A stretch of 64,000 nt of DNA, taken from the NCBI RefSeq assembly GCF_024508235.1, contig NZ_CP101943.1:434001-498000 (forward strand). The letters are read 5' to 3'. Position 1 is the stretch's first letter. The number at the start of each line of letters is the position of its first letter. Below, piece after piece: positions 45,257-49,489 of this stretch. Below the pieces are notes generated by a model. That model was not told where the DNA came from. It saw only the letters and a list, made by a program, of their open reading frames with translations, and did no database searches. The translations under genes and the position numbers were made by a program. The DNA is from Halococcus qingdaonensis. Lineage in GTDB: Archaea; Halobacteriota; Halobacteria; Halobacteriales; Halococcaceae.

Positions 45257-45451
45257 TTACAGTCGTTCGAGGTTCTCGGCGCGCGGGCCCTTGTCGGCCT
45301 GCACGATGTCGAACTCGACTTCCTGGCCTTCTTCGAGGTCGGGGCCGCCGACGTCTTCCATGTGGAAGAAGACGTCCTCGTCGGCTTCGTCGGTCTCGAT
45401 GAAGCCGTAGCCGCCCGTGTCGTTGAAGAAGTCCACTTGTCCTTCAGCCAT
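45257..45451 (-). CDS. Cold-shock domain protein, second of tandem pair
   Basis: 64-residue CspA-type single-strand nucleic-acid-binding protein. RNP-1 is seen as GGYGFIETDE and RNP-2 as DVFFHMEDV. It starts 2 nt after the stop of its upstream paralog. The two products differ at only a handful of positions near the N-terminus, yet their codons differ at many silent sites. It acts as an RNA chaperone in the cytoplasm. Confidence 0.96.
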   Translation of the reverse strand: MAEGQVDFFNDTGGYGFIETDEADEDVFFHMEDVGGPDLEEGQEVEFDIVQADKGPRAENLERL

Positions 45452-45453
45452 GT

Positions 45454-45648
45454 TTACAGCCGCTCCAGGTTCTCCGCCCGCGGTCCCTTGTCAGCCTGCA
45501 CGATGTCGAACTCTACCTCCTGTCCTTCCTCCAAGTCGGGGCCGCCGACGTCTTCCATGTGGAAGAAGACGTCCTCGTCCGCGTCGTCACTTTCGATGAA
45601 CCCATAGCCGCCCGTGTCGTTGAAGAAGTCAACCGTACCTGACGCCAT
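45454..45648 (-). CDS. Cold-shock domain protein, first of tandem pair
   Basis: 64 residues. The start MASGTVDFFNDTGGYGFIESDD is followed by a body identical to its downstream neighbour from DVFFHMEDV on. RNP-1 and RNP-2 are intact. The ATG at 45648 lies 26-28 nt after a CATAAAAA (45674-45681) box on the minus strand, so the mRNA is probably leaderless and carries both copies. Confidence 0.96.
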   Translation of the reverse strand: MASGTVDFFNDTGGYGFIESDDADEDVFFHMEDVGGPDLEEGQEVEFDIVQADKGPRAENLERL

Positions 45649-45673
45649 TGCACTCGATGGGATGCACCGGTAA

Positions 45674-45681
45674 CATAAAAA
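45674..45681 (-). promoter_or_regulatory. TATA-like box of the tandem cold-shock operon
   Basis: On the minus strand TTTTTATG lies 26-33 nt before the ATG at 45648. The position suits a leaderless haloarchaeal promoter. Confidence 0.5.
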
Positions 45682-45772
45682 CCTGCGCAATGGTCGCCCG
45701 GCCTGTCCCGCCGTCGCACGATCCGTCCGCATGCCAGAAGATTCATTTCACCCCCCCGGTTATGAGCCATGA

Positions 45773-46702
45773 ATGGCCTCGCGCACGCACAGCCTGCTGA
45801 ACCAAGCCTACGAGCGCCTTCTCGAACGCGAGATCGACGGCGCACCCACGCACGTCGCCGTCATTCAGGACGGCAACCGACGCTACGCGGACGAACACGG
45901 CCAGGACGCCGCCGACGGCCACCGTGCCGGTGCCGAAACCACCGAGGCGGTGCTCGACTGGTGTGCACAGATCGGCGTCGAGGAGCTCACCCTCTACACG
46001 TTCTCGACGGAGAACTTCGACCGCTCGGCCGACGAGCGCGACCATCTCTTCTCACTGCTCGAAGAGAAACTCCGCGAATTCGCCGACGCCGAGCGCGTCC
46101 ACGAACGCGAAGTGCGGATCCGGGCCATCGGCGAGACCGACCGACTGCCCGACGATCTCCGTGACGCCATCGACTACGCCGAGACGAAGACTGCCGACTA
46201 CGACGCTCTCCAGCTCAACATCGCGCTCGCCTACGGCGGCCGTGCCGAACTGTTGAGCGCGGCCCGCGACGTCGCACGCACGGTCGAAGCCGGTGATACT
46301 GCCCCGGGTGACATCGACGCCGAGACGATCGAGCGCCGCCTCTACGCCGGTCCCGCCCGCGACGTGGACCTCATCATCCGCACGGGGGGCGACGAGCGCA
46401 CCTCGAACTTCCTGCCGTGGCACGCCAACGGCAACGAGGCGGCGGTCTTCTTCTGCACACCCTACTGGCCCGCTTTCGCCAAGAAGGACTTCCTGCGCGC
46501 GATCCGCACCTACGAATCACGCGAGCAGTCGTGGCGACGCACCCGCGCGCGGCGCGCGCTCGCACTGGTTCGTGCGGTGGGCGGCGCGGAACTCGACGAG
46601 GCGCGCGCCATCGTCGATCGCTTCCGCGAATATCTCCCACGCGGCGAACTCGACGGTGTCGAGCACAACGCGAACGAGACCGAACCGACGACGGCCGACT
46701 GA
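45773..46702 (+). CDS. uppS: cis-Prenyltransferase (undecaprenyl/dolichyl diphosphate synthase)
   Basis: 309-residue cis-prenyltransferase. The catalytic N-terminal motif THVAVIQDGNRRYADEHG (residues 24-41) includes the Asp, Asn and Arg of the active site. TLYTFSTENFDRSADE and LNIALAYGGRAEL follow. The C-terminal motif DLIIRTGGDERTSNFLPWHANGNEAAVFF keeps RTGG..R but departs from the common WQ..Y.E..F pattern. It elongates farnesyl or geranylgeranyl diphosphate with isopentenyl units to make the dolichol carrier for glycosylation. A second, altered paralog lies 480 bp downstream on the other strand. Confidence 0.93.
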   Translation: MASRTHSLLNQAYERLLEREIDGAPTHVAVIQDGNRRYADEHGQDAADGHRAGAETTEAVLDWCAQIGVEELTLYTFSTENFDRSADERDHLFSLLEEKLREFADAERVHEREVRIRAIGETDRLPDDLRDAIDYAETKTADYDALQLNIALAYGGRAELLSAARDVARTVEAGDTAPGDIDAETIERRLYAGPARDVDLIIRTGGDERTSNFLPWHANGNEAAVFFCTPYWPAFAKKDFLRAIRTYESREQSWRRTRARRALALVRAVGGAELDEARAIVDRFREYLPRGELDGVEHNANETEPTTAD

Positions 46703-46723
46703 ACCGGTGACGACGGAGGGACG

Positions 46724-47122
46724 CTATTTTGCGACGCCCGATCGGCGCGATTCGATGGTCAGCAGAGCTGCGGCGACAACCGACAGCGCAGCGAACGGGA
46801 CGATCGCTCGCCCGATACTGAACAACGAAAGCACTGCGAGCGTCGACACCGCTACTGCGAGCGCCCAGACGCGCCATAGCCGTTCCGTCCACGTCCAGTA
46901 GCCGACTCCGAGCGAGAGGGCAACGACGACGATCGACCAGAATAGGATCAGTGGCGCGTTCGCTACTGCGAGGCTTTCGCCCTCAACGAACAGGTATGGG
47001 ATCACCGCCGTTACGAGCAGGTAGCCGGCCCCGAGTAACCCGGCGACCATTGCGAGCAGTCCGGCACCTCGGGCGAGCGTCGATCCGGATTCATCGCGAT
47101 CGCGATCGTTCGCGACGCTCAT
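46724..47122 (-). CDS. Four-helix membrane protein of unknown function
   Basis: 132-residue membrane protein with four predicted spans (about residues 18-45, 52-73, 80-100 and 103-124). The N-terminal 15 residues are charged. No conserved motif is recognised. It lies between the two cis-prenyltransferase genes, 62 nt upstream of the degenerate paralog's stop side, and both are on the minus strand in the order paralog then this gene. Confidence 0.7.
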   Translation of the reverse strand: MSVANDRDRDESGSTLARGAGLLAMVAGLLGAGYLLVTAVIPYLFVEGESLAVANAPLILFWSIVVVALSLGVGYWTWTERLWRVWALAVAVSTLAVLSLFSIGRAIVPFAALSVVAAALLTIESRRSGVAK

Positions 47123-47184
47123 TGTGTTCGATTCTTCGCTTCAATCGAGCATAACTCTTGTCGCAACCAGAGAACGTCGATGCT

Positions 47185-47817
47185 TTACTGTCCGTACCGG
47201 CGCTGTCGGCTTTGATAATCCCGCAGCGCGCGGAGATACTCGCGCTTGCGGAAATCGCGCCAGTTCACGTCGGTGAAGTACAGCTCCGAGTAGACCGACT
47301 GCCAGATCATGAAATCCGAGAGCCGTTCGGCACCCGTCTTGATGACGAGATCGGGGGCGGTCGGAAAGACGAGTCGATCCTCGATCGTCTCGGCGTCGAT
47401 CTCCTCGGGTGCGAGCGTACCGGCCTCGACAGCCGTGGCCGCGCCGCGAACGGCCGCCGCGAACTCGTGTTTGCCGCCGAGACCGATGCTCACGTTGATC
47501 GGTGCGTCGGCGCGCTCGTCGTCGTCCGGACCGCGAACGGCGAGTTCGCGCGGGGCGTCACAGCGCTCGAACACCCGACGGATGGCCGGCACCGCGCCCG
47601 TATCGAGCACGCTCACGTAGACCAGCACGCAGTCGGCGTCGTACTCGAAGGCCCACTCGAAGAACTCCTCGACCGTTCGATAGGCACCGTCTTCAAGCAG
47701 ATCGCGCTCGGCGATGACGACCGCGACACAGCCCGGCAGCGGGGCCTCGGTGCGGCGGATGCGAGCGGCGAGATAGCGGTCGTACAGTCCCACGGTGAAA
47801 CGGAGCGGTTGATTCAC
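47185..47817 (-). CDS. Degenerate cis-prenyltransferase paralog
   Basis: 210-residue protein of the UppS family. The N-terminal active-site motif is gone: where a family enzyme has DGNRRWA it has CVAVVIAERDLLEDGAYRTVEEFFEWA. In contrast, the C-terminal half keeps DLVIKTGAERLSDFMIWQSVYSELYFTDVNWRDFRKREYLRAL, the classical dimer and substrate signature. Thus it probably has no activity alone. In eukaryotes a catalytic cis-prenyltransferase (DHDDS) works with an inactive relative (NgBR/Nus1). A similar heteromer with the product of 45773-46702 is a reasonable hypothesis. It starts at a GTG. Confidence 0.85.
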   Translation of the reverse strand: MNQPLRFTVGLYDRYLAARIRRTEAPLPGCVAVVIAERDLLEDGAYRTVEEFFEWAFEYDADCVLVYVSVLDTGAVPAIRRVFERCDAPRELAVRGPDDDERADAPINVSIGLGGKHEFAAAVRGAATAVEAGTLAPEEIDAETIEDRLVFPTAPDLVIKTGAERLSDFMIWQSVYSELYFTDVNWRDFRKREYLRALRDYQSRQRRYGQ

Positions 47818-48124: not shown

Positions 48125-49489
48125 GTGACGTGGCCTCTCCGGCGGGCGGGCGCGTTCGCGCTCGTCGGCGCGCTCTCGCTCGCCGCCCCGCTGTTGGGAC
48201 CGGCCGCCGCCGCTCCCTTCGTGGTCGTCGCCGCGCTCGCGGCGTTCGTCGTCGAGGACGGGCCGGCCTTCGAACTGTTCGCCCGGCCCGGCGATCACGA
48301 GGAGCGCACGCTCTATGGCCTGGCGGGCTTCGCGCTCGCGGCGGCCGGCCTCGCGCTGTTCGTCCCCCTGTTCGGCATGCCCGTCTTCGTCTTCGTCGCC
48401 AGCGTGCTCGTACTCTCCGGTGGCAACCTCGCCGAGGCGGCGGCTCGCCAGCGCCGACACGAACCCGTCGCCGCCACGGTCGCGTTCGTCGTTGGCGGAA
48501 CACTCGCAGGCGTGCTCGGCCAGTTCGTCGTCGGGCTCGCCGCCCCGGCACCGTCGCCCGCGCTCGCGGTCTTCTTCGCCGCGAGCGCCGCGCTGCTCGG
48601 CGCGCTGGTTCGCCTCGCGCTGTTCGTCCGCGACGACCCGCTCGTGCTGTTCTCGATGGGATTGTTGCTCTGGCTGCTGGCCGCGCTCGAACCGACGATC
48701 AGCCCGATCGGTGTCGCGCTCGCGCTCCTCGTCACGGCCGGTTTCGGCGCGCTCGCCTACGCGCTCGACACCGCGTCGATCACCGGGATGGTGACGGGCG
48801 TGCTCGCGGGACTGCTGATGGTCGTTCTCGGCGGGTTCGGCTGGTTCGCGCTGCTCATCACATTCTTCGGCGGCGGCGGGCTCGCCGGCAAGTTCCGCTA
48901 CGATCGGAAGCGAAAGCGCGGACTGGCCGAGGGCAACGACGGCGCGCGTGGCAGCGCCAACGTGCTCGCGAACTCCGCGGTCGCGCTCGGTGCCGTGCTG
49001 GCCTACGCCGCGAGCCCGATGTTGCCGCTCACGGCCAGCCCCTTCGTGTTCGCCTTCGCCGGCTCGCTCGCCGCGGCGATGGCCGACACGCTGTCGAGCG
49101 AGATCGGCGGGCTGTTCGACACGCCCCGACTCATCACGACGTTCGAACCCGTCCCACCGGGCACCGACGGCGGCGTGACGTGGCAGGGGGTCGTCGCAGG
49201 CCTGTTCGGCGCGGTGCTCATCGCCGTTCTCGGCTTCCTCTTCCTCCCGATCTCGCCAGCGGGCGCGATCGTCGTCGCACTCGCGGGCATCGCCGGCATG
49301 GTCGTCGACAGTCTACTCGGTGCGCGCTTCGAGAACCGAGCGGTCGGCGATCTGTTCGCCGGTGTGCTCGCCGGTCTCGCGTTCGCCGACCGCCGTATCG
49401 GCAATCAGACGGTGAACTTCCTCGCCACGCTCGCGGCCGCGCTGGTCTGTGCAGCGCTCGCCGCGGCTACCGGTCTCGCGGCGCTATGA
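48125..49489 (+). CDS. DUF92 membrane protein (TMEM19/VTE6-like)
   Basis: 454-residue polytopic membrane protein with about twelve spans. The second half has the DUF92 signature: FFGGGGLAGKFRYDRKRKRGLAEGNDGARGSANVLANS, SLAAAMADTLSSEIGGLF, GTDGGVTWQGVVAG and DSLLGARFENR. The first half (1-220) is an additional membrane domain. Family knowledge: plant VTE6 with this domain makes phytyl diphosphate from phytyl phosphate. With a cis-prenyltransferase nearby, a polyprenyl-phosphate kinase role is plausible but not shown. It begins at a GTG and shares an ATGA overlap with the GNAT gene. Confidence 0.88.
   Translation: MTWPLRRAGAFALVGALSLAAPLLGPAAAAPFVVVAALAAFVVEDGPAFELFARPGDHEERTLYGLAGFALAAAGLALFVPLFGMPVFVFVASVLVLSGGNLAEAAARQRRHEPVAATVAFVVGGTLAGVLGQFVVGLAAPAPSPALAVFFAASAALLGALVRLALFVRDDPLVLFSMGLLLWLLAALEPTISPIGVALALLVTAGFGALAYALDTASITGMVTGVLAGLLMVVLGGFGWFALLITFFGGGGLAGKFRYDRKRKRGLAEGNDGARGSANVLANSAVALGAVLAYAASPMLPLTASPFVFAFAGSLAAAMADTLSSEIGGLFDTPRLITTFEPVPPGTDGGVTWQGVVAGLFGAVLIAVLGFLFLPISPAGAIVVALAGIAGMVVDSLLGARFENRAVGDLFAGVLAGLAFADRRIGNQTVNFLATLAAALVCAALAAATGLAAL

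Follow-up and report, generated by a model that had tools for sequence, protein, structure and literature searches.

Why should an archaeal genome carry, side by side, two genes of the cis-prenyltransferase family, only one of which encodes a recognizable active site? The window analysed here, a stretch of 64,000 nucleotides from Halococcus qingdaonensis, contains both open reading frames where the initial annotation had placed them, with the peptides that it quoted, and we refer to their products as CatA and DegB (Table 1). A genome-wide search found no other PF01255 gene in the 2.70 Mb genome. The initial annotation has to be corrected as regards orientation: DegB lies on the minus strand and CatA on the plus strand, so that the pair is convergent, which rules out an operon. 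The ORF that separates them is unrelated to either and has no match in Pfam or NCBIfam and no relative at the other loci compared; in a close relative the two genes almost abut. DegB matches just the C-terminal half of the PF01255 model because the catalytic motifs have been lost from its N-terminal half. In a profile–profile comparison its whole length is aligned with CatA (hhalign probability 99.9, 201 columns), the chain following the cis-prenyltransferase domain of CatA from residue 5 onward. The analysis indicates that the two genes annotated as ‘uppS’ in haloarchaea encode two halves of one enzyme, not two enzymes.

Table 1. Features of the CatA/DegB locus (positions in the window; residue equivalents numbered on E. 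coli UppS)
Feature	Position	Strand	Evidence
CatA, predicted catalytic cis-prenyltransferase subunit, 309 aa	45773..46702	+	PF01255 model 1-216, 235.5 bits; TIGR00055 uppS 234 bits, above its cut-off
CatA active-site motif DGNRRYA	45869..45889	+	D26/G27/N28/R30 equivalents in 106/106 homologues
CatA altered interface segment SNFLPWHANGNEAAVFF	46403..46453	+	L206 replaced by P in 103/106; 98/106 retain the E213 equivalent; group consensus
CatA C-terminal extension replacing the RXG ending	46529..46699	+	Aligned columns without RXG; median 54 residues beyond the E. coli 241 column
ORF between CatA and DegB, 132 aa	46724-47122	-	
DegB, predicted non-catalytic cis-prenyltransferase subunit, 210 aa	47185..47817	-	PF01255 model 115-219 only, 92.2 bits; below the uppS equivalog cut-off
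DegB RXG motif RYG (R207-Y208-G209), one residue short of the C-terminus	47191..47199	-	R242 equivalent in 86/88, G244 equivalent in 88/88
DegB retained interface segment WQSVYSELYFTDV	47266..47304	-	Sequence; E213 equivalent in 88/88, W207 equivalent in 87/88
DUF92 membrane protein, divergent neighbour of DegB	48125..49489	+	PF01940, 199.5 bits

In homodimeric cis-prenyltransferases the terminal RXG motif of each chain crosses the dimer interface into the active site of the other subunit. The sequences bear out that CatA retains its active site and that DegB has lost its own, and also that DegB retains the dimer segment singled out by the initial annotation (WQSVYSELYFTDV). The C-terminal segment of CatA that had been described as unusual (PWHANGNEAAVFF) is indeed altered, but it still has the counterpart of the E. 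coli glutamate E213. The clearest complementary loss, and in our reading of the sequences the decisive one, was omitted from the initial annotation: DegB ends in RRYGQ-COOH (residues R207-Y-G-Q210), whereas RXG is absent from CatA.

This comparison was extended to about 55 haloarchaeal genera, whose loci were read, and to about 45 further genomes of Halobacteriota, with residue columns numbered on E. coli UppS (a reference sequence whose core matches that in the PDB alignment). In the CatA-type sequences (n = 106), the equivalents of N74, R77, R194, R200 and S202 are, like those of D26, G27, N28 and R30, present in every one. Their RXG columns are mostly S/E, W/K and R/Q; the arginine column holds an arginine in only four of the 106, and glycine is not among the common residues at its own column. 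In the 88 DegB-type sequences, the equivalents of R30 and R77 are gone, the interface and RXG columns are kept (Table 1), and the chain invariably ends one residue past the RXG glycine, four past the E. coli 241 column. Both sets of features are found nearly complete in one chain in 43 single archaeal enzymes (Asgard, Thermoproteota, DPANN). Homodimeric UppS, as in E. coli and M. luteus, belongs to the same fold family, sharing its catalytic residues with CatA and its interface and RXG with DegB; there, as in the single enzymes of Asgard and Thermoproteota, the DGN active site and RXG are in one chain, whereas in CatA/DegB they are split. As far as sequence can tell, this partition is far beyond chance, since it is the same in 106 CatA-type and 88 DegB-type homologues.

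Strict co-occurrence of the two genes, which the initial annotation had proposed to survey, is borne out. A PF01255 search found two genes in nearly all of 292 haloarchaeal genomes; DegB, scored with its own profile and with the weakest matches followed up, has a match in all 292 and CatA in 291, and most of the phylum behaves likewise, the same pattern recurring in about 20 further families of Halobacteriota. The frequent loss of the second gene that had been named as evidence against a heteromer is not seen in these 292 genomes. The exceptions are few. One haloarchaeal genome has DegB and no CatA was found in it, and in another genome (G365) CatA is present and DegB was not found; both are probably assembly gaps. 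DegB is cut at a contig end in one genome closely related to that of the window. Two incomplete Halobacteriota genomes have one PF01255 match each among the matches listed, and in one of them a different contig carries a DegB-like fragment. Finally, three genomes of a single Halobacteriota family (f18) gave no PF01255 match at all, even with E values up to 1. Judged by gene content and residue pattern, Halobacteriota as a phylum are fixed for the complementary split.

The loss of the N-terminal catalytic motifs might by itself suggest that DegB has no function and is either decaying or an accidental paralog, but its rate of change makes this scarcely conceivable. Against a relative of the same genus, DegB has a dN of 0.009 and a dS of 0.13 (NG86), a dN/dS of about 0.07 that is comparable to that of CatA (about 0.06) and that rules out a degenerating gene. 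Mean identity between genera is 0.66 for DegB and 0.65 for CatA, and DegB is present in every haloarchaeal genome sampled. The purifying selection on DegB is the same as that on CatA.

On the strength of their sequences, CatA and DegB thus very probably form an obligate heteromer, a single two-subunit cis-prenyltransferase that makes polyprenyl diphosphate for dolichol-type carriers. This reading is supported by the homology of the two proteins, by their complementary residue losses, by their co-occurrence, by purifying selection and by the single-gene state elsewhere in archaea. We infer a physical complex in which CatA would bind the allylic primer and isopentenyl diphosphate and carry out the chemistry, while DegB, devoid of an active site, would pack on CatA through its conserved WQSVYSELYF face. 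The C-terminal R-Y-G-Q of DegB would then enter the active site of CatA, supplying in trans the RXG motif that CatA has lost. The product would be a medium or long polyprenyl diphosphate, later converted into a dolichyl-phosphate-type carrier for N-glycosylation. Counted against a heteromer is the arrangement of the genes, which are convergent rather than in an operon and are unlinked in several Halobacteriota families. A single-sequence AlphaFold model of DegB had a mean pLDDT of 38.9, too poor for use.

The loss of RXG alone is no proof that CatA needs a partner, because MM_0014 of Methanosarcina mazei, which also lacks RXG, is a working homodimer (PMC8131916). In three third copies of the MM_0014 type, from relatives of Methanosarcina, the active site is present and the chain ends in TLGG. 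CatA might likewise act alone as a homodimer, its altered C-terminus replacing RXG, with DegB serving separately, for example in regulating or presenting polyprenyl phosphates. The C-terminal extension of many CatA proteins would fit such a role, but in some families CatA has no extension and RXG is still absent. Moreover, what DegB has kept is precisely its interface and its RXG, which have a role only in trans; its C-terminus is of invariant length, and its co-occurrence with CatA is strict. We therefore consider an autonomous CatA quite improbable.

A heteromeric enzyme of this kind is already known in archaea. According to PMC8131916, which cites Emi et al. (2019; doi 10.1016/j.bbrc.2019.09.143) on this point, MM_0618 and MM_1083 of M. 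mazei form a heteromeric cis-prenyltransferase with C45-50 products. A Methanosarcina-type genome in our set (G413) has exactly one CatA, one DegB and one MM_0014 ortholog; as the third of its three paralogs is the MM_0014 ortholog, CatA/DegB is by elimination the counterpart of MM_0618/MM_1083. Methanosarcina-type sequences also sit inside the CatA and DegB clades of a tree built on the C-terminal half that the two proteins share, and CatA/DegB is likely, from these comparisons, to be the ortholog of the M. mazei enzyme. Both systems consist of two cis-prenyltransferase-family paralogs from the same phylum; they differ in that the haloarchaeal genes are neighbours and that many CatA proteins have a longer tail. 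Archaeoglobus fulgidus reportedly has a further heteromeric cis-prenyltransferase, AF1219/AF0707, said to have appeared in J Biochem in 2022. In genome G380 of our set, CatA lies at 1.09 Mb and DegB at 0.64 Mb, positions that fit the A. fulgidus locus numbers; here the genes are unlinked and CatA has no C-terminal extension, unlike those in the window. What is added here to the known archaeal enzyme is its phylum-wide fixation and the complementary residue accounting.

The tree was computed after removal of the RXG columns, and its deep branching is not settled because only 114 columns were kept. DegB forms one clade in it (SH-aLRT 99), as does CatA save for two divergent rows from one family (f20). 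The most economical interpretation is that a single duplication and split took place close to the base of Halobacteriota. Across four loci of family f20, the CatA sequences are very divergent and the DegB sequences short, with RXG divided between them in the usual way; their position in the tree is unclear, and an independent split is therefore possible there.

The resemblance to the eukaryotic dolichol synthase is close. In human DHDDS/NgBR the RXG motif occurs solely in the inactive NgBR, which ends in R290-L-G-K293; this tail enters the active site of DHDDS, with which its last residues make contact (PMC7573591). Since DegB ends in RXG-x and CatA has no RXG, the division of labour is the same, down to a C-terminus of invariant length in DegB, and CatA keeps the equivalents of DHDDS E81, N82, R85 and R37, residues that contact the tail of the partner. 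The main difference is that NgBR has an N-terminal membrane domain and the short DegB has none. The alignment of the CatA profile with DHDDS reaches residue 274, inside the helix-turn-helix C-terminal domain through which DHDDS makes tetramers.

It is nevertheless unlikely that the archaeal heteromer and DHDDS/NgBR descend from one ancestral split. DHDDS is the top PDB match of the CatA profile, and nearly the full length of the DegB profile aligns with NgBR, which is matched up to its last residue. Yet a profile of single archaeal enzymes, mostly Asgard, scores human DHDDS at 270 bits, more than the 238 bits of the CatA profile, and NgBR much as the DegB profile does (about 44 against 42-46 bits), so that no specific kinship of CatA with DHDDS or of DegB with NgBR was found. 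In addition, PF01255 is matched in 74 of 79 Asgard genomes, almost always by just one full-length gene, and all but a few of the Asgard genes that were read retain DGN together with an RXG-like end. One Asgard genome has a second cis-prenyltransferase-like gene that lacks DGN and ends in RRFSH, with the intact copy elsewhere in the genome. Because most Asgard genomes have one intact gene and the single-enzyme profile scores as it does, convergence with eukaryotes, that is, an independent origin of the two pairs, is favoured by the sequence comparisons; these are profile scores rather than a rooted tree, and the sample lies outside Methanobacteriota and Thermoplasmatota. The description of the pair as DHDDS/NgBR-like accordingly holds as an analogy, the residue partition being the same, and not as shared descent. 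The possible archaeal heteromer put forward by the initial annotation itself gains support from co-occurrence, from this partition and from the Methanosarcina-type pair. It is likely that a single split at the base of Halobacteriota, fixed phylum-wide, gave the active site and the RXG tail to the same kinds of subunit as in eukaryotes, independently of them, which would make it a case of parallel evolution of the dolichol-synthase heteromer. The eukaryotic heteromer, which is mutated in human disease, would thereby gain a soluble and, it appears, convergent counterpart in archaea that are genetically tractable, in which one could ask directly why such a split evolves.

The association of DegB with its DUF92 neighbour is conserved. 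The DUF92 gene lies head to head with DegB at 41 of 44 haloarchaeal DegB loci and at 15 of 44 in other Halobacteriota, and this adjacency persists even where CatA lies elsewhere. DUF92 includes the plant phytyl-phosphate kinase VTE6, which makes a link to isoprenoid phosphate metabolism plausible; the neighbour probably acts in isoprenoid metabolism, possibly as a polyprenyl-phosphate enzyme. Upstream of CatA (45257-45732), two near-identical cold-shock proteins are encoded in tandem, and up to four copies of the cold-shock gene are found at other haloarchaeal loci.
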